A DNA stretch of 64,000 bases from Synechococcus sp. CBW1002. GTDB taxonomy: Bacteria > Cyanobacteriota > Cyanobacteriia > PCC-6307 > Cyanobiaceae. Under the pieces are notes generated by a model. It was not told the origin of the DNA, searched no databases, and was given only the letters and a program-made list of their open reading frames with translations. The position numbers were made by a program, and so were the translations under genes. This document shows, piece after piece, positions 1-17,562 of this stretch (positions are counted from its first letter, which is position 1; each line of letters begins with the position of its first letter). The stretch is taken from the NCBI RefSeq assembly GCF_015840915.1, contig NZ_CP060398.1:434001-498000 (forward strand). The letters are read 5' to 3'.

Positions 1-19
1 AATACTTGACTTATTGCTA

Positions 20-496
20 ATGAGAAGTTCCCTTGCCAAGGCATTTATCCTGCTTGCCTGTTTCGTTGGTCTTCAGTCATGTTCAATGAATAAGCGTGTC
101 CTTAGCGGAACCATGGCCCTCCTCGACCCTGGAGACATATATGGTTCTTGGGATGACTGCGAGGGAACGGGGGGATATGGCGATGTCAGTAATGGGTCAC
201 CCGTTACCATCGAAGATCAAGATGGTAAGATCATAGGTGGATCATCATGGAGCAATATGGACGAACAAGGACTGGTAATCTTTGCAAAGTCTCAAACTGG
301 TAAACTTAGCAATGTGAGCGCCGCCAAGGAATGGATGCAAAGCAATGAGGGGGATGTTTGCGTCCTATACTTTAAGACTAGCCTTAACGCGACTCCACAA
401 GCATTAACTGTAAAAACGCGACGCGGAGACTTGTCATTCACAAAGGAGCAGCTAGACAAGGATGGCTGGAATGTTGGTTTCTCACTTGGCTTGTAG
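20..496 (+). CDS. small secreted lipoprotein, function unknown
   Basis: A 158-residue protein with a basic N-terminus, a hydrophobic stretch (residues about 6-19) and a lipobox-like VGLQSC, so probably lipidated and attached to a membrane. The ATG at 20 is preferred to the in-frame TTG at 14 because it puts the signal sequence at the very start. The rest is polar and resembles no family I recognise. It lies on the element side of the tRNA-Pro attachment site and is more AT-rich than the chromosomal genes here, which suggests cargo of an integrative element (inference). It converges on the Xis-like gene. Confidence 0.6.
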   Translation: MRSSLAKAFILLACFVGLQSCSMNKRVLSGTMALLDPGDIYGSWDDCEGTGGYGDVSNGSPVTIEDQDGKIIGGSSWSNMDEQGLVIFAKSQTGKLSNVSAAKEWMQSNEGDVCVLYFKTSLNATPQALTVKTRRGDLSFTKEQLDKDGWNVGFSLGL

Positions 497-566
497 TCCG
501 GCTTTGAAACCCTGCTGCGATATAAGGTTTGAATCTGATGTCTAGCTGCTCAAGTAAGCCAGTGGA

Positions 567-600
567 AAAGCAGCTGCTGGAGCCTTCTAGCAGCTGCTCA
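567..600. terminator. hairpin between converging genes
   Basis: The self-complementary decamer AGCAGCTGCT occurs twice (569-578 and 589-598) with 10 bases between, so the copies can pair as a 10-bp stem with a 10-nt loop. It sits between the stops of the lipoprotein gene and the Xis-like gene and could terminate both. There is no strong T-run. The exact 20-bp spacing would also suit a dimeric repressor site. Confidence 0.4.
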
Positions 601-619
601 TAGCGGCTAGGCAACTTCG

Positions 620-865
620 TTACTCCTCTTCCCGCTCATAGGTCTCGCCAACTTGGACCTGTTTGCGAAACCTGCTGTACTCACGCAGCGCTTGCTCCGT
701 TGCATCAGCGTCCCAGATGGTTCTCACTTTTCCTTGAAGAAGGAAGTGCTTCCCAGGAAGGAGAACACCGTTGCGGCGCAGTTCTATCAGCCGATTGCGA
801 CTGATTCTCAAGTTCCTAGCGAGCTCGTTGGAAGTTAGCCACTTAGTGGCAGTGGTCGTAGTCAT
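620..865 (-). CDS. small helix-turn-helix protein, excisionase-like
   Basis: An 81-residue protein whose N-terminal half (WLTSNELARNLRISRNRLIELRRNG) is a MerR/Xis-type helix-turn-helix, followed by a short wing and a charged tail. Proteins of this size and fold next to a tyrosine integrase usually act as excisionase or as repressor of the integration genes. It lies directly downstream of the integrase on the same strand. The ATG at 865 is chosen over a GTG at 871 because the GTG adds only two residues; no Shine-Dalgarno is clear for either. The excisionase role is inferred from context. Confidence 0.6.
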   Translation of the reverse strand: MTTTTATKWLTSNELARNLRISRNRLIELRRNGVLLPGKHFLLQGKVRTIWDADATEQALREYSRFRKQVQVGETYEREEE

Positions 866-1074
866 ACACACAAAGGGAGATCACTGCCGGCCGTGATGGC
901 TGCAGCTGAACAAACGTGATCCCGCTTGATGCCTGCTAAGAATCGCTCGGCTGGAAGGCCGGCCAACAACGCGGTGTTGGCTCCGTATCGCGGCAGTGAT
1001 GAATCGGCAAACCCGCTGAGTGAGCTTCCACTCACGTCAACAGGTTTAGAGGTCGCAAGCTTGGAGCCTCCCCC

Positions 1075-2385
1075 TCAGAGCACTTTAGCGCAACTCTCAA
1101 CACTTGCGGACGATTTACCGGCCCCCTTCTCCCCGAAAGCGTCCGCAAATGCCGCCGCCGCTTCCCCTTGATTGACGAAGCGGGCGTATCGTCGCAAGTG
1201 AGTCTCCAGCGAATGCCCCATGGCTTCGGCGATGTACTTCGGCGGCAAGTTGTTTCGGTGGCAGGTCGCCGAGTAGCGGTGCCGCAGGGAGTAGGGCACA
1301 AGCTCCTCCCCTAGATGCTCGGCCTCGCCGCAGAGCTGCTGCCAGATACCTTGTCGTCTGAGGAAGCGCCCCATGCGATCCCCTGCCATCTTTGGTTCTG
1401 CGACCTCGGGGAGAGGTTCTCCGGCCCGGAGCCTCTTTTCAAGGAGCCATTCCATCCTTGTCCCATCAGCATCCATCACCGGTGCGGCCAGTAGTTGACG
1501 CGGTTTTGTCGTCCCGCCTCCACTCTTCTTGGCATAGAGGCACCAGAGCACATCCCCCCGAAACCGGAGGTGAAACAGCTCCGTAGGTCTGAGGCCGTAG
1601 ACGGCACACAGCTGAACCGCAAAGGCCCACCGGCGTGCTTCGTCACTGGTGCTTGCCTCCAGCGCTTCCACCAGCCGGATCACCTGGCTATCCCCGAGGG
1701 CGTATTGCTCTCGGGTCGGTGCGCGTCGTCCCACCACAGTTGTGAGACTCTGCGGGGGCGACCACGTACGAGCGCTCACCTCGTGTCGCTCAACTGCGTA
1801 TCGCAGAAATGCGGCCCCGTTCTGAGCCGCGATCTGACGGCTGCGACTTCCCAGCTCCCACTGACGCACGGCTTGCTCAAGAAGGTTCGCGCCGTTTGAT
1901 GGTGCCCGCTGCCCTTGCAGCAGTTTCAGCATGGCCTGGACGACGGGGGCGTACTTCCTTTCCCAAGTGGTCGCAGTGATACCAGCTCCGTGCTCTTGCT
2001 TGTGCCGCTGAAATGCGGTTGCTATGGCGGGCCAGTTGTAGGCGGCATGGCTGCTGGCGTTGTTCGCCAGGTTCGCTGCTGTTTTGAGGTCTTCCCCCTG
2101 GGCCAGGTATTTGCCAATCACTCTTAGCCGCTGGATCAGATCGTGCTCTTGCGCCTCGGACCAGTCGTAGGGCAGAGCCACCGAGACACTGGTGATGGAG
2201 CCATCCGGCTGACTGAAGCGCTGTTGAAGACGTGCACGCCTGGTCTTGTCGGGACCAACGTTGCAGCGCTCCGGGAGGTGCTGCCTCAGATGCGCTCGCA
2301 CCCGCTGTTCCCAGGTGGTGGCTGCAGGAGCGGGTTTGGTCACCGGTTGGACAGCGGTTGGACAGTACGGAGCAGAAGGGAGCAC
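1075..2385 (-). CDS. int: phage-type tyrosine recombinase/integrase
   Basis: A 436-residue protein. The C-terminal half has the catalytic pattern of tyrosine recombinases: the first Arg in YGLRPTELFHLRF, the H/R box in PYSLRHRYSATCHR, and the nucleophile Tyr in MGHSLETHLRRYARF. The N-terminal half would hold the arm- and core-binding domains. The start is a GTG (2383-2385) lying inside a block of 10-bp phased GAGCA repeats, so Int binding may repress its own gene (inference). It points away from the tRNA-Pro fragment at 2493-2536, the usual place for an integrase at the edge of a tRNA-targeted element. It appears intact. Confidence 0.9.
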   Translation of the reverse strand: MLPSAPYCPTAVQPVTKPAPAATTWEQRVRAHLRQHLPERCNVGPDKTRRARLQQRFSQPDGSITSVSVALPYDWSEAQEHDLIQRLRVIGKYLAQGEDLKTAANLANNASSHAAYNWPAIATAFQRHKQEHGAGITATTWERKYAPVVQAMLKLLQGQRAPSNGANLLEQAVRQWELGSRSRQIAAQNGAAFLRYAVERHEVSARTWSPPQSLTTVVGRRAPTREQYALGDSQVIRLVEALEASTSDEARRWAFAVQLCAVYGLRPTELFHLRFRGDVLWCLYAKKSGGGTTKPRQLLAAPVMDADGTRMEWLLEKRLRAGEPLPEVAEPKMAGDRMGRFLRRQGIWQQLCGEAEHLGEELVPYSLRHRYSATCHRNNLPPKYIAEAMGHSLETHLRRYARFVNQGEAAAAFADAFGEKGAGKSSASVESCAKVL

Positions 2386-2480
2386 TTCAGTGCATTTCTC
2401 CCCTCCCCATGAAAGTCTGAAAAGACTGCTATGACAAGCTCTAGAGCACTTGGGAGCACTTCAGAGCAGTCTGGAGCAGA
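2366..2480 (+). repeat. phased GAGCA repeats flanking the integrase start
   Basis: GAGCA recurs at exactly 10-bp steps in two clusters: about 2370 and 2380 (with a GTGCA at 2390), and 2444, 2454, 2464 and 2474. The 13-mer GGGAGCACTTCAG occurs at 2378 and again at 2452. Helically phased short repeats next to an attachment site are what integrase arm-binding sites look like. Confidence 0.6.
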
Positions 2481-2492
2481 TCTCTGTCTGTC

Positions 2493-2536
2493 GCTTTGGG
2501 AGCACTAGGTCGCAGGTTCGAATCCTGTCGCCCCGA
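2493..2536 (+). other. 3' half of tRNA-Pro(UGG): integration attachment site
   Basis: The stretch holds an anticodon loop TTTGGGA (anticodon TGG), the variable region, the T-arm with GGTTCGAATCC, and the acceptor strand CGCCCCGA, all in the layout of a cyanobacterial tRNA-Pro. The sequence just upstream lacks a D-arm and a 5' acceptor strand, so only the 3' half is present. Elements that integrate into a tRNA rebuild a full gene at one end and leave such a 3' fragment at the other. The element therefore lies to the left (integrase side) and the original chromosome to the right. Confidence 0.8.
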
Positions 2537-2550
2537 TCCAGTTACACCAA

Positions 2551-2580
2551 GGGCTCTCGGATTTCCCGGGAGCCCTTTTT
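2551..2580 (+). terminator. terminator after the tRNA-Pro fragment
   Basis: Stem GGGCTCTCGG / CCGGGAGCCC (one G-U pair) with a 5-nt loop, followed by TTTTT. It would have ended the original tRNA-Pro transcript and now follows only the truncated tRNA. Confidence 0.75.
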
Positions 2581-2781
2581 ATGCCCTGTTTTGGACCGTC
2601 GTGCGCATGATGTGCGCAAAATCCAGGCCCGTGCGCAGGCTGCGCACCAGCGGGAATGGCCGGACAGGGGCTGACAGGGGCGGGTCCGATAGCCTCCCGT
2701 GCACTCGGCCGGCGCCTCCTGGGTCCTCGGGTGCATCCCCAGCCCCTGCGGGCACAACTGCCATCAGCCGATGCATTCCTG

Positions 2782-3381: not shown

Positions 3382-3789
3382 TCAACCCACGGTTTCCACA
3401 GGTGGTCCGTAGGCCGCCAGGGTGCGATCGGCACTGAACAACCGCAGGCCTTCCACCTGGGCCTGCACCACCAGGAGGCGGTCGAACGGATCACGGTGAA
3501 GCCAGGGAAGGTGCTGGACGGCCAGGGCGTGTTCGGCGCGCACAGGCAGCTCGCGGAATCCCTGGCCAAGCAGACCCAGGCGCAGGGCAGCAGCTTCCAC
3601 CTGGAAATCGGCTCGCCCGAGTGACGACTTGATCGCCACTTCCCAGAGGCTCACCACGCTGAGGACCAATGGCTGGGCCGGATCAGCCAGAAGGCCGGCC
3701 ACGGCTGCTGGCAGGCGCTTAGGTTCAATGGCCCACCAGAGCAGCAGCTGGGTGTCCAGGAGCAGGGGCAGGGGCTCGGTTCGGGTCAC
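3382..3789 (-). CDS. vapC: PIN-domain ribonuclease toxin (VapC type)
   Basis: A 135-residue protein with the acidic residues of the PIN fold in order: Asp in PLLLDTQLLLWW, Glu in SLWEVAIKSSLG, Asp in HRDPFDRLLVVQAQ and a final Asp in LFSADRTLAAYG. VapC toxins cleave RNA, commonly initiator tRNA or rRNA, until their antitoxin binds them. The antitoxin gene ends 10 bp upstream on the same strand, the usual order. The length is typical and the protein looks intact. The RNA target cannot be read from the sequence. Confidence 0.85.
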   Translation of the reverse strand: MTRTEPLPLLLDTQLLLWWAIEPKRLPAAVAGLLADPAQPLVLSVVSLWEVAIKSSLGRADFQVEAAALRLGLLGQGFRELPVRAEHALAVQHLPWLHRDPFDRLLVVQAQVEGLRLFSADRTLAAYGPPVETVG

Positions 3790-3799
3790 GATGGCCTGA

Positions 3800-4027
3800 T
3801 CAGCCGAACAGATGGTCGATCTCGCTGGCGAAGTCAGCCTTCAGGTCGGCACGGGCCACGGCGGCACCCTGCAGGAACCCTCCTCGCCGGACCTCGGAGG
3901 GGTTGTGCACCGGCACCAGCCGCACCAGTGGACGGCCAGCCTTGGCAATCACCACCTCCTCCCCTTCAAGGGCCTGCGCCACGTAGCGGGAGAGGTGGGT
4001 CTTGGCGTCGTGGAGGTTCACCTGCAT
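3800..4027 (-). CDS. Phd/YefM-type antitoxin
   Basis: A 75-residue protein starting MQVNLHDAKTHLSRYVAQAL, the typical N-terminus of Phd/YefM antitoxins (DNA-binding domain), followed by EGEEVVIAKAGRPLVRLVP and a helical tail that would wrap the toxin. A longer open frame continues upstream to 4264, but that part is IS-derived, so the ATG at 4027 is chosen. The gene pairs with the PIN toxin just downstream. The IS5-family element begins at 4072, only 45 bp upstream, so the native autoregulated promoter has been displaced or shortened (inference). Confidence 0.85.
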   Translation of the reverse strand: MQVNLHDAKTHLSRYVAQALEGEEVVIAKAGRPLVRLVPVHNPSEVRRGGFLQGAAVARADLKADFASEIDHLFG

Positions 4028-4193
4028 GGCCAGGGTCCGCAATGGAATCAACTTAGTCCAGGTACGGCTAAGGAACCTCTGGACAACGCCCCCCTTAAAA
4101 AGGGCCTGGAGTCGCGCATTGTTCAGGATGAACAATTTGAGGGTGGATCGGTTGTTGATCAGCCTGAATTCACCTTTGTGGACGCTGAATCTT

Positions 4194-4226
4194 GCCCATT
4201 TGGGGTGGTGCCTGCCCCAAATGGGC
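4194..4226 (-). terminator. hairpin downstream of the IS5 transposase
   Basis: Perfect 12-bp arms GCCCATTTGGGG and CCCCAAATGGGC separated by 9 nt. It lies 16 bp past the transposase stop at 4242, so it probably ends that transcript or shields the element from read-through. There is no T-run. Confidence 0.5.
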
Positions 4227-4699
4227 ACACCACTCCCCCAGTCATGTCTTGCATAGCAACTCATGGTGCGCCATAAATAGGTTCTTGATTACCCAGCTCG
4301 CTCCGTGCAGGCCATTTGTCCCGACTAGAGTGGTACACAGATACTGTTCTGGCCATGGCACGCAACGGCATCCAGTTCCAGAAGGGCCTGTCTCTGCCTG
4401 AGTTCCAGCGGCTCTACGGCACAGAGGAGCAATGTGAGGCTGCTCTGGAGAAGGCTCGCTGGCCGGATGGGTTCCGGTGCCCTCGCTGCAATGGGCATGA
4501 ACATGGCCTGGTTTACGGCCGACGACTCAAGCGCTACCAATGCCGCAACTGCGGCCATCAGACAACACTCACGGCCGGCACGATCCTGCAGGCCACCAAG
4601 CTCCCTCTGACAAACTGGTTCCTGGCCTTTTATCTGATCGGCCAGGCCAAGAACGGGATCTCCTCGCTGGAATTGAGTCGTCACCTGGGCGTCAACTAC

Positions 4700-6077: not shown

Positions 6078-7166
6078 ATGAAGAGCCGGCCGCCTCTCCG
6101 TCACGGCATTGGCGAAAAGCTGCGCCAGGGGGGTTGACGATCTATACGAGCATCACCGCCTGGCTGCTTCACAACAAGATCCTGCGGGCGATGAGCTAAC
6201 GGGAGGAGGAGTATCTGCTGCGGGGAAAGATTCAGATAGATGATGCCTACCTCGGCGGAGAACGCACTGGCGGCAAGGTGGGTCGCGGATCAGAAAACAA
6301 GATTCCGATCGTGGCAGCCGTCTCGTTGAACGAGTCCGGCCATCCGATCCACGCAAAGATCGCGCCGGTGAATAGCTTCAGTTCAGAGGCGATCGCTAAC
6401 TGGTCCTTGAATAATCTGACTCCCGGTAGCGATGTACTCTCCGATGGCCTGGCCTGCTTCCGCGCCGTGACCACGGCCAACTGCCACCACAAGGCGAATG
6501 TCACCACCGGCAAGCACCCCAACGACCTGCCGCAGTTCCGCTGGATCAACACCCTGCTGGGCAACCTAAAGACCAGCTTCAACGGCACCTTCCATGCCTT
6601 CAACTTTGACAAGTACGCCAAGCGCTACCTGGGCGGCTTCTGCTTCCGCTTCAATCGGCGCTTTGCCATGGCTGAGATGACCGAGCGCATCGCCAATGCA
6701 GTCTGCTGCTGCATGCCTTGCACGGAGCGGGATCTCAGGCTTGCGGAGGCTTATGGGTAATCAAGAATAGGTTTGAGAGGCCGGCCAGCACATTCACCTT
6801 GCAGCGGTTCTTGAGCATTCCACGCAGCCGGGTCTTTTGAAAGCCGAACTGGCGCTTGATCACGCGGAACGGATGCTCCACCTTGGCACGGAAGTGAGCC
6901 TTTGCCGTCTCGATCAGGTCATCCACCCTCCCCTCGGGTGTATCCGGTAACGCGCGACGCTTGCCTGGACGCATGGCAGTACGGAAGCCGATACCCCTGC
7001 CTTCCATCTCGGGTCGTTTCTCAATACCCTGGTACCCGGCATCTGCGTAGACCACTGTCTCTTCACCGTGCAGGAGTTCAGCGGCGGGAGTGAGGTCATG
7101 CACATTGGCGGCGGTCGTTTCCACCGAGTGGATGAGGCCGCTCTCGCTGTCCACCCCGATGTGGAC

Positions 7167-7191
7167 CTACCGCTTCGCGGGCCTACGGCTA
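7167..7191 (-). repeat. 25-nt GC-rich insertion in the IS5 transposase
   Basis: Where the family protein reads HFGM-K-VHIGVDS, the single Lys codon is replaced by 25 nt containing CCTACCGCTTCGCGGGCCTA, with CCTAC at its start and again near its end. It adds 22 nt and shifts the frame. It looks like a miniature repeat rather than a slipped base. Confidence 0.45.
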
Positions 7192-7806
7192 CATCCCAAA
7201 GTGCCATTGCTTGCCCTTGCAGGTCTGGTGCATCTCAGGATCCCTCTCCCGCTTCTCATTCTTTGTGGAGCTTGGTGCCGCGATGATGGTCGCATCGATG
7301 ATCGTGCCCTGCTTCATAACCATGCCATTGGCCTTGAGGTGGGCCTTCACGGCTTCAAAGATCTGCGCGCCCAGATCCTTCTCCTCCAGTAGATGCCGGA
7401 ACGCCAGGATCGTGGTCTCATCCGGGATCCGGTCGGTGATCAGGGCGATACCGGCAAAGCGGCGCATGGTCGCCACCTCAAGCAGCGCATCCTCCATCGC
7501 CGGATCGCTCAGGTCATACCACTGCTGCAGCAGATGAATCCGCAGCATGGTTTCCAACGGATAGGGCGGCCGACCGCCCTTGCTGCTGGTCCTGGGGTAG
7601 TGGGGTTCGATCAGATCGATCAGTGCTTTCCAGGGAACAACCGCCTCCATCTCAGCCAGAAATCGCTCTCGCCGGGTGCGCTTTTTGGCCGTGGACTGCT
7701 CGTAATCACCAAAACCGAACTGCTTGGCGTCCATCAAGCCTGACCACGTCACCGATCACAAGGCCATTGTCGCGCAGGGTGGCGGGGTTTTCCAGAGTCT
7801 CCCTAA

Positions 7807-14863: not shown

Positions 14864-15875
14864 GGCCGCCGAGGCCCCGCCTGAGCCGGAAACGCTGCAG
14901 CGCTGCAGCGAGATCCTCCAGGCGCACCGGCTTGGTGAGGAAGTCATTCATGCCGGCACCCTGGCATTCCTGGCGCTGCGTCTCGAACGCATAGGCCGTC
15001 AGGGCGATCACGTACAACCCCTGGAAACCGCGCCGGCGCAACTCACGCGTGGCTGAAACCCCATCCAATCGGGGCATCTGGATATCCATGAACACCAGAT
15101 CAATCCCACCGGCCTCGATCCGCTCCACGGCGGCCTGACCGTCGGCAACAAAGTCAGCCTTGAGGCCCAACTTGGCCAACATCAACTCAATCATCCGCTG
15201 ATTGACGCGACCATCTTCCGCCACCAGGATTCCGACACCTTGAAGGCCTTTCACCTGTGTTTCTGACAGCACCTCGGATTGCTTTTCCGAGGGCACCTCG
15301 GCCAGGGTTTCTGACAGCAGCTCGACTTGCGGTTTCGATGTCGCCGGCTTGTTTGCTTTCAGATCCACCGGATCAGCTGATTCAGGTTCCTTCACTGTGG
15401 ACAGCGCTGACCGCGCCGGGGCCAAGGCGAGGCTGAAGGGAATCGTGGCCGTGAAGCAACTCCCTTCACCGAGCCTGGAGACCACGGCAAGATCACCACC
15501 CATGAGCCTGCAGAGGCGGCGGGTGATGGCCAGACCAAGGCCGGAGCTGCGGCCATCCTGATCCCTCAGGGACTGACGGGTGAACTCTTCAAACAGGATG
15601 GCCTGAAAGTCGTCGGAGATGCCAAGGCCCGTATCCGTGACCTTGAAGCCAAGGTCAACACCATCCTCACCACGCGGCGAAGACTCGACAACGAGACTGA
15701 CGCCACCGGCATCCGTATATTTACAAGCATTGCCGAGAAGATTGAAGAGGATCTGACGCAACTTGACCTCATCCCCAAGCAGCCATCTCGGCGCCTCTGG
15801 AGCCAGCGAAACCTCGAGCGTCAACGCCTTGGCATCAGCCGCCTGACGAAATAAAGTCTCACAATCCGTAAGCAT
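14844..15875 (-). pseudogene. hybrid histidine kinase, C-terminal fragment (ATPase + receiver)
   Basis: From LTDCETLFRQAADAKALTLE onward this is the catalytic half of a hybrid sensor kinase. The HATPase domain shows the N box (LRQILFNLLGNACKYTD), G1 (VTDTGLGIS) and G2 (GRSSGLGLAITRR). A Ser/Glu/Lys-rich linker with near-repeats (SETLAEVPSEKQSEVLSETQ) leads to a receiver domain with the phospho-acceptor Asp in DLVFMDIQMPRLDG, then ALTAYAF and FLTKPVR. The other half lies at 17563-18331, separated by an IS66-family element. Removing the element and one copy of CACAATCC joins the halves in frame (LLIKDC-ETLFRQ). Confidence 0.9.
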
Positions 15876-17562
15876 TCAGGGGTCGGGACAGCACGCGGCG
15901 AACATCGTCTCTGCTGAACCCTTGACGGCGTCCTGATTCCCGTTTGCATCTCAGGCAGAGACTGCTTGAGATGGGCGCCCCTCCTGCTGGCATTTCCGAG
16001 GTGGACTGGTTGTCGTGGCCAGCTGGTGCCAGGGAGTTCATCCTGGCTCAACAGGAGGAGATGGTGCAGCTCCGCGTCCAGCTCACCGCCCTGGCGACCG
16101 AACTGGCCCATCTGCGCGAGCGGATCGGCCGCAGCTCCCGCAATTCTTCCAAGCCTCCCTCCAGTGATGGCCAGGGGTTTAGGCCGCCCGAACGACGCAA
16201 GGGCAGTGGCCGCAAGCGCGGCGGCCAGCCGGGCCATCCCGGATCTGGGCCGGAGCTGCTGCCGATCGAGCGGGTGGATGAGGTGGTCGAGCACCACCCC
16301 CAGGCCTGCCGCCGCTGCGGCACGTTGCTACAGGGTCAGGATCCCGAGCCCTTGAGGCACCAGGTGATCGAGATTCCACCGATCACGCCTCTGGTGATCG
16401 AGCACCGGCTGCACCGCCTGGTCTGCCCCTGCTGTTCCACCAGCACCTGTGCCTCGTTACCGGCGGAGGTGGAAGTAAGCCATTACGGTCCCCGGCTCAG
16501 TGCTCTGGTGGGTCTGCTGGGTAGTGCCTTCCCGTTGAGTTTCAGCAAGACCCAGGCGCTGCTGGATCAGCTGCTGGGGGTACAGATCAGCCGGGGAGCG
16601 ATGGCCACTATCCGCCAGCGCTTGAGTGCAGCACTGGAGCAGCCCATGCAGGAGGCCCTTGCGTTTGCCCGTCAGCAGTCGGTGGTCTATGTCGATGAAA
16701 CCGGTGCCCCTACCGGTAATGCCGATGGGGGCAACCCCGATGGCCGGCGCGGCTGGGAGTGGGTCATGGTGACCGCCATGGGGGTGACAGTGTTCTTGCA
16801 GAGCCTGAGCCGCTCGGCTGCCGCCGCGATCGACCTGCTCGGGAATGCCTTTGGCGGAATTGTGGTGAGCGACCGCTTCTCCGCCTACAACCATCTCCCG
16901 CTGGAGCAGCGCCAGCTGTGCTGGGCGCACGTGATCCGCGATCTCACTGCCATCGCTGACCGTCAGGGCGCCAGCGGTGAGATTGGAGCGGAGCTGCTGG
17001 GCCTGCAGCAGCAGCTGTTTGCCCAGTGGCACCGCTACAAAGACGGAACGATCGACTGGTCCACGTTGCAGCAGGGCTGTCGGCCGATCCGCCAGGCGTT
17101 TGTGGGCACGCTGCATCGGGTTGTGGAGCTGGGCTGCCAGCGCGGCGAGCGAACGCCGTGGGCCAAGACGGTGCGTACCTGCCATCAGTTGCTGCAAGTG
17201 AGCGATGGCCTCTGGACCTTCCTGGAGATTGAAGGGATCGAGCCCACCAACAACGCAGCCGAGCGTGCCCTGCGCCATTCGGTGATTCAGCGCAAGATCA
17301 GCCATGGCGTCCAATCCCGCCAGGGTGCAATCTGCCGCAGCAGGTTGCTCACGGTCACCACCAGCCTGCGGCAACAGGGCCGTGATATCTGGCAGTTCCT
17401 GGAGCAGGCCTTGATCGCCCATCATCGCGGCGGTGAGATGCCATCGCTGTTGCCGAATCCCTGAGCCGGCCGTCATCGATCGTGGTGTCTGTGGTCGCTT
17501 GGTGATCAGCGATCAAGGGCGGTGAATGCTGCGCGGCTGCGTCACGGCCCCTGAACGGATAC
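15868..17562 (+). mobile_element. IS66-family element, transposase only
   Basis: The left end begins GTAAGCATTCAGGGGTCGGG (15868). The right end, read inward, is GTATCCGTTCAGGGGCCGTG (ending 17562). The flanks are a perfect 8-bp duplication, CACAATCC, at 15860-15867 and 17563-17570, as expected for IS66. At 1695 bp it carries only the transposase, without the accessory tnpA/tnpB genes of full IS66 elements. It splits the hybrid kinase gene and lies opposite to it. Confidence 0.92.
15971..17464 (+). CDS. IS66-family transposase
   Basis: A protein of about 497 residues. An N-terminal leucine-rich coiled stretch leads into IGRSSRNSSKPPSSDGQG, then a zinc-finger-like segment (CRRCGTLL ... CPCC) and the DDE core: Asp in VVYVDETGAPTGN, Asp in GIVVSDRFSAYNH, and Glu in IEPTNNAAERALRH. 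The ATG at 15971 is preferred over a TTG at 15944. The frame is intact, so the element may still be active, and excision would restore the host gene. Confidence 0.92.
   Translation: MGAPPAGISEVDWLSWPAGAREFILAQQEEMVQLRVQLTALATELAHLRERIGRSSRNSSKPPSSDGQGFRPPERRKGSGRKRGGQPGHPGSGPELLPIERVDEVVEHHPQACRRCGTLLQGQDPEPLRHQVIEIPPITPLVIEHRLHRLVCPCCSTSTCASLPAEVEVSHYGPRLSALVGLLGSAFPLSFSKTQALLDQLLGVQISRGAMATIRQRLSAALEQPMQEALAFARQQSVVYVDETGAPTGNADGGNPDGRRGWEWVMVTAMGVTVFLQSLSRSAAAAIDLLGNAFGGIVVSDRFSAYNHLPLEQRQLCWAHVIRDLTAIADRQGASGEIGAELLGLQQQLFAQWHRYKDGTIDWSTLQQGCRPIRQAFVGTLHRVVELGCQRGERTPWAKTVRTCHQLLQVSDGLWTFLEIEGIEPTNNAAERALRHSVIQRKISHGVQSRQGAICRSRLLTVTTSLRQQGRDIWQFLEQALIAHHRGGEMPSLLPNP

Follow-up and report, generated by a model that had tools for sequence, protein, structure and literature searches.

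A tRNA-Pro(UGG) gene of Synechococcus sp. CBW1002 as the probable meeting point of two integrative elements that carry opposite halves of the tRNA

Tycheposons of marine picocyanobacteria were reportedly described by Hackl et al. in 2023 and are one of several systems to which the locus treated here can be compared. This locus is a tRNA-Pro(UGG) gene of Synechococcus sp. CBW1002 with the integrase gene int_A on its left and an integrative element, B, on its right, the far end of B carrying another integrase gene, int_B. The window—the whole stretch of 64,000 nucleotides that was analyzed—contains the right-hand end of B and corresponds to G000:C1:434001-498000, G000 being the source genome, a single contig of 3,854,122 bp. 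Tycheposons are covered by secondary accounts (PMC10872708, PMC11389934, PMC10803314), and, as far as these summary descriptions allow the likeness to be drawn, B resembles them in being a tRNA-bordered cargo element with a tyrosine recombinase from the circle of Cyanobium, Synechococcus, and Prochlorococcus, its 45 kb falling within the 4-200 kb that one of them gives as the size range (PMC10872708). The Islander collection contains 3760 islands with a 3' fragment and 159 with a 5' fragment (PMC4383910). The class A islands of that account share with the present locus an intact tRNA at one end, a fragment at the other, an integrase of their own, tandem arrays, and an anticodon-centered core; in contrast to them, the 3' and 5' kinds here share one tRNA gene, have related integrases, and often stand back to back (PMC4383910). 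Users of the 5' half place the rebuilt tRNA under a promoter of the element and are, according to a review (PMC8371274), seldom met in bacteria. The archaeal pTN3-like integrases presented in that review likewise have the tRNA 5' half as attachment site; in contrast to them, the 5'-half carriers described here are bacterial, probably belong to another integrase family, and share their target gene with an element that uses the 3' half.

Cyanophages provide a further point of comparison. Integrase-bearing representatives include the T7-like P-SSP7 and S-TIP37 (PMC8776855) and the siphoviruses P-SS2 (PMC2784084) and S-LBS1 (PMC6157547), and the virus-like contigs considered below share with them an integrase together with an attP-like match to host tRNA sequence. 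They differ in the tRNA concerned: the T7-like cyanophages use tRNA-Leu (PMC8776855) and P-SS2 has a 53-bp match with partial tRNA identity (PMC2784084), whereas the contigs here carry tRNA-Pro(UGG). Marine isolates of Synechococcus and Prochlorococcus are said to lack intact prophages (PMC8776855). Carriage of either tRNA half is already known, and what appears to be new here is the two-sided arrangement; no account of a two-sided tRNA-Pro hotspot was found in the literature searched, the main tycheposon paper and Williams 2002 lying outside its reach, and novelty is unproven.

Very probably, two elements meet at one tRNA-Pro(UGG) gene in this genome—B, which carries the 3' half, and A, which carries the 5' half—and the intact tRNA copy is their joint product, the native gene being interrupted by a transposon. 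B would be a 45-kb picocyanobacterial integrative element with a tyrosine recombinase that acts at the anticodon-loop core of tRNA-Pro(UGG). Because B would bring a copy of the 3' half, its insertion would rebuild the tRNA at the left junction and displace the old 3' half to the right end, beside the integrase. Upstream, the tRNA would border on the right end of A, with int_A as a distant relative of int_B. The intact tRNA would then have its 5' half and its upstream DNA from a type-A element and its 3' half either from B or from the site that B entered, and the native gene would have been broken by a transposable unit. This picture draws its support from sequence: from the borders and their arm repeats, from relatives of either polarity, from the interrupted native copy and the type-A-like DNA ahead of the intact one, and from the attP-like viral junctions; the recombinases may well be active, and a promoter of the element may drive the tRNA.

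According to the sequence-only reading, an integrative element in tRNA-Pro(UGG) has its right border at the start of the window and lies mostly to the left of it. The integrase gene, a small helix-turn-helix (HTH) gene, and the 3' tRNA fragment are all present at this border, and 43 kb of the 45,442 bp of the element do lie outside the window, to the left. There, 45.4 kb away and on the same strand, stands an intact tRNA-Pro(UGG) with an identical 3' 44 bp, as that reading had foreseen. Window positions 2493-2536 match G000:C1:391050-391093 over 44 bp with no mismatch (E 5.5e-15), and they represent a fragment since ARAGORN calls no tRNA at this place. Hence, B features an intact tRNA and a same-strand matching fragment at its ends and a tyrosine integrase inside, beside one end—the hallmarks of a tRNA-targeted integrative element. 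On its + strand, the stretch 386001-437000 (51 kb) contains the 9-mer GGTTGGACA exclusively at 391123, 391134, 436345, and 436356, with an 11-bp spacing inside each end; one extra copy is found on the - strand of this stretch, at 412576. Because the + strand pairs sit only just inside both ends, the boundary goes beyond a repeat that might have arisen by chance, and these arm repeats are putative binding sites of the integrase. In G001, the sole same-genus genome compared for an empty site, the tRNA-Pro locus itself is occupied or interrupted by contig ends. The right border itself is real and belongs to an ordinary kind of element. In the sequence directly to its right (window 2537..2620), a GTGCGC pair may mark where a third element, now decayed, has its left end, and similar sequence also follows the 3' fragment in G001 (query 1-44 against G001:C11, 86%).

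Two genomes of other genera contain related elements, 53.4 kb long in G249 and 65.0 kb long in G219, in which both the 44-bp fragment and the arm repeat are those of B. Their integrases adjoin the 3' fragment and are 75.8% (G249) and 74.5% (G219) identical to int_B; their HTH proteins are 64% and 66% identical to that of B, which is a candidate excisionase. The other protein matches between B and these two elements are few and comprise open reading frames (ORFs) read as transposases (46-59%), a primase region (36% over 242 amino acids), and a weak methylase match (27%), so that a conserved integration module appears to carry different cargo. A tRNA-Pro 3' fragment adjoins the integrase in 27 of the 29 int_B-like loci that have DNA among the top matches of 300 genomes; none was found at L048 and L072. 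This recurrence of the 3' fragment with the same kind of adjoining integrase, together with arm repeats that match end to end and identical ends around different cargo in G249 and G219, makes it very unlikely that homologous recombination, or duplication and rearrangement driven by insertion sequences, produced the 44-bp repeat and split the native tRNA rather than site-specific integration. What speaks for such an origin is a genome very rich in insertion sequences—the transposase-like stretch at window 15868-17562 alone has more than 20 genome copies—as well as the break of synteny with G001 at window 7805 beside ORFs read as transposases, and the fact that two complete tRNA copies existed.

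The integrase on the other side of the intact tRNA, int_A, matches the PHROG 1 integrase family (E 8.5e-14) and is followed by a small HTH ORF of its own, with a weak PHROG match to an excisionase or regulator. Matches to it at E <= 1e-30 were obtained in 152 of 400 family genomes. In 17 of the 30 best int_A-like loci with DNA, ARAGORN calls an intact tRNA-Pro(UGG) beside the integrase, in divergent position as in G000; only a 3' fragment is present in 12, and only a 5' half in one (L143). Alignment A1 yielded 11 named loci, in nine of which the tRNA lies divergent beside the integrase, the exceptions being L194, with no tRNA on the contig, and L199, with the tRNA on the strand of the integrase. 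These named loci come from Cyanobium, Synechococcus, and Prochlorococcus, which bears out the picocyanobacterial host group supposed from the sequence at the outset. Displaced 5' tRNA fragments, which start at positions 1-4 and end at 40-44, were found in 11 of 21 genomes searched. Among the one-contig type-A genomes, the tRNA and the same-strand 5' fragment are 43.4 kb (G104), 25.3 kb (G060), 28.8 kb (G116), and 19.2 kb (G219) apart, and no displaced 5' fragment was found in G154 and G000. Hence, these four genomes, and not G000, feature the layout of a 5'-fragment island, with a displaced same-strand 5' fragment upstream and the intact tRNA at the integrase end. Paired arm repeats are common to both ends of the type-A elements in the same four genomes, weakly so in G219. 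At the left end of type-A elements, the core is followed in six genomes by an unvarying TTTGGGAG-N12-CAAGC; this motif was not found in G000 and G154. A TAnnnT hexamer resembling the -10 box of a promoter lies 14-16 nt upstream of the tRNA in 16 of 17 type-A loci (the exception is L146), and the median -10 score is 4.99 versus 1.57 at the same offset of type-B fragments.

These relatives also bear on the simpler possibility of a single ordinary tRNA island, in which only B is real, the integrase to the left is an unrelated decayed neighbor, and the tRNA is preceded by native host DNA. Such an island would fit an A that has no left end in G000 and is hemmed in by transposase-like ORFs. It is improbable and largely refuted by the 17 best relatives of int_A in the same divergent position, by the displaced 5' fragments in about half of the genomes searched, and by the DNA upstream of the intact tRNA, of which 45/60 nt are identical to the type-A locus of G045 and 14/60 to the native copy. 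The upstream 60 nt of the native copy are in turn identical to G001 at 42/60 positions.

Both types have their integrase 5' of the core and differ in the tRNA half carried. Type-A relatives carry the 5' half, and displaced 5' fragments lie elsewhere in their genomes, which argues that the tRNA-Pro gene is used from both sides at one anticodon-loop core, as far as sequence can tell. Four of the six one-contig type-A genomes (G000, G219, G116, and G060, not G104 and G154) show an intact tRNA that is flanked on one side by a type-A integrase and followed downstream by a 3' fragment on its own strand, and G219 is a composite like G000, with int_A, the tRNA, 65 kb, int_B, and the 3' fragment in succession. 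A tree of 58 integrases, 16 of them 5'-carrying, implies two changes of the half carried, and one clade of 5'-carrying integrases was not rejected (approximately unbiased test, p-AU 0.276). G020 and G051, in which an intact tRNA stands beside an int_B-like integrase, were added after being noticed in the match lists; the quick tree that includes them has three changes, of which at least two are forced by well supported branches, and the tree program flags the joining of long branches. Because at least two changes are forced in this tree, the 5'-carrying habit was apparently gained or lost on more than one occasion. A single clade for the 5'-carrying integrases had been considered and was dropped once these two genomes were included.

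Several further arrangements were seen among related loci. At L143, the 5' half is followed by the apparent left end of a further element, and L179 (G361) has a type-A integrase end, a 5' half, and then the apparent left end of another element, so that type-A elements may stand in tandem there. G060 has a second type-A left end (L203, G060:C1:1320976-1321000), with arms like the first and no tRNA 5' half before it. The integrase of L199 is a distant relative (34%), and its same-strand tRNA-Pro makes a third kind of arrangement. Among the products of the 19-kb type-A element of G219 are a helicase-like protein and one with the large-subunit domain of a phage terminase (L205, 14008-15705), and the element is phage-satellite-like in this respect. 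A 20-kb tRNA-Pro element of G014 (L088-L089, G014:C6:81426-101308) encodes DnaB-like helicase, radical SAM, and ParA-like proteins; no phage structural match was found among the eight ORFs scanned.

The native tRNA-Pro(UGG) locus of G000 lies approximately 1.67 Mb from the intact copy, and its neighbors are syntenic to G001 (five ORF pairs with 87-97% identity). The 3,527-bp unit that splits it has a second copy in element B (410298-413824), to which it is 99.97% identical over its full length. As the native gene is split and the remaining tRNA-Pro genes found have the anticodons CGG and GGG, homology search gives no intact UGG gene besides the copy at 391020, ARAGORN having been run on less than the whole genome. 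Eight ORFs of the window have 274 proline codons between them, of which 31 are CCA, the codon read only by UGG. We infer that the cell depends on the 391020 copy, and only infer it, because the exclusive reading of CCA by UGG is general knowledge.

Several observations weigh against two elements acting at this gene. Elements A and B are known from sequence alone. No Pfam model matches int_A, and the left end of A was not found in G000, where neither a truncated 5' fragment nor the left-end motif nor a second arm-repeat pair was detected; A is, for this reason, regarded as a remnant in G000. The left-end motif is weak as a count, the reversed control being commoner (12 matches over 8 genomes versus 7), so that only its position and its constant 12-nt spacing support it. 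As for the -10 box, 5.2% of random windows score as high as the median type-A locus. The copy of the 3,527-bp unit in B has no matching 3-bp flank repeat, and the 3-bp overlap in the split native tRNA is therefore not established as a target-site duplication. How the genome acquired two complete tRNA-Pro(UGG) copies is left unexplained.

The attachment core also occurs in virus-like DNA. The exact 42-bp core was found in 20 IMG/VR contigs, two of which have the intact tRNA, and in 14 of the 20 the core stands between two copies of one arm motif, as against 0 of 24 chromosomal fragments (24 of the 29 int_B-like loci; the other five did not fit the pattern). The 14 viral contigs with two-sided arms are likely unintegrated attP sites; two-sided arms could alternatively stem from a chromosomal tandem of two like elements. 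Related integrases are encoded close by in most of the contigs. ORFs of 13 of the 14 attP-like contigs were scanned, and a structural gene was found in six: a terminase in L236 and a minor tail protein in L240, L246, L249, L250, and L251. The scans of others gave a sigma factor, annealing proteins, helicases, or nothing, and the replication protein of L243 resembles those of the Synechococcus phages S-CBS3 and S-CBS1. Neither int_B nor the integrase of L249 is matched by any of 50,697 phage records, and protein queries with int_A and int_B against viral and genome collections returned no relatives or, with alignment A1, the 11 named loci. The viral negatives of the protein queries are weak because the DNA search with the core found related integrases in the same viral collection. 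The attP pattern of type A has no viral matches.

The attP-like contigs beside related integrases, with a phage structural gene near in six of the 14, would also suit a B that is a decayed temperate cyanophage rather than a cargo element. This is unlikely given the content of B itself, where the ORFs scanned are primase/polymerase, helicase-like, restriction-modification, oxidase, and other genes with no structural family among them. The families were assigned by scans with Pfam (20 proteins), PHROGs (10 proteins of B and A), and others, which covered a subset of the ORFs of B; no PHROG structural family was found among the 10 and none among the 20 scanned with Pfam. Transposase ORFs were judged by eye.

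A more far-reaching proposal extends the two-element reading. The only working tRNA-Pro(UGG) of this host would consist entirely of mobile-element DNA, with promoter and 5' half from A and the 3' half from B, after a transposon broke the native gene, and the host would thus depend on two otherwise dispensable elements; the tRNA-Pro(UGG) of picocyanobacteria would be a two-sided hotspot with at least two switches of the half carried, and temperate cyanosiphophages would feed its 3' side. Taken jointly, these propositions are tentative and slightly more apt to fail than to hold. The genomic islands of picocyanobacteria matter for the ecology of oceans and lakes, and their movement is poorly known; the locus provides a defined att module that can be traced from chromosomes into virus-like contigs and a natural test of a likely essential gene rebuilt from two mobile elements, one of which brings the upstream DNA.

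Table 1. Features of the tRNA-Pro(UGG) locus and of element B (window, positions in the 64,000-nucleotide stretch)
Feature	Location	Strand	Basis or remark
Element B, whole; 45,442 bp including terminal repeat	G000:C1:391095-436536; right-hand end, window 1..2492	.	44-bp direct repeat and arm repeats at both ends
attR, displaced 3' part of tRNA-Pro(UGG), tRNA positions 31-74, from the anticodon stem/loop	window 2493..2536	+	Exact match to intact tRNA 391020-391094
Paired arm-type repeats GGTTGGACA, copies at 2345 and 2356; left-end pair at G000:C1:391123 and 391134	window 2345..2364	+	Sequence match
int_B, tyrosine recombinase, 436 amino acids, reading away from the tRNA fragment	window 1075..2385	-	Pfam PF00589 E 9e-7; PHROG 1 integrase E 7e-15
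Small HTH protein, 83 amino acids, candidate excisionase/regulator, conserved beside this integrase	window 620..871	-	PF12728 E 4.4e-4, short of Pfam's own cut-off
Right of attR: terminator-like inverted repeat and GTGCGC pair with 11-bp spacing (2601, 2612)	window 2537..2620	+	Read from sequence
int_A, second integrase, directly left of the intact tRNA, reading away from it	G000:C1:389650-390942	-	36% identical to int_B
Intact tRNA-Pro(UGG)	G000:C1:391020-391094	+	Between integrase A and element B
Native tRNA-Pro(UGG) locus	G000:C1:2,056,062-2,059,666		Split into positions 1-47 and 45-75 around 3,527 bp
Cargo ORF, 160 amino acids, lipoprotein-like start (judged by eye), no family match	window 14..496	+	Pfam, PHROG scans
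Short XerC/D-like recombinase	G000:C1:392271-392927		
Prim-Pol/CHC2/AAA_25 protein	G000:C1:393066-396221		
Type I restriction-modification set with DUF4268 protein	G000:C1:398466-405923		Methylase scanned over first 511 residues
LodA-type oxidase in pieces	G000:C1, N-terminal domain 415982-416851		C-terminal domain matches in two later ORFs
VapE-like helicase and Prim-Pol ORF	G000:C1:428531-430435 and 432041-432934		ORF between read as transposase

The cargo of B also includes a glycosyltransferase and an L-PSP-family protein in addition to the genes listed in Table 1. The pieces of the LodA-type oxidase (415982-416851 and 418091-420957) are split by an ORF resembling the transposase of an insertion sequence, and the L-PSP-family gene adjoins them.

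To the right of the border, transposase-like ORFs occupy window 6735-7805, and synteny with the contig G001:C48 starts right after them, at 7805. As it starts only there, and as the first 7 kb of G001:C48 contain no tRNA-Pro fragment, the right neighborhood of the island is regarded as rearranged. Between the border and these ORFs, a toxin-antitoxin-like gene pair lies on the - strand at window 3382-4264; its upstream ORF matches a Phd-family antitoxin model, and the other is without an NCBIfam match.

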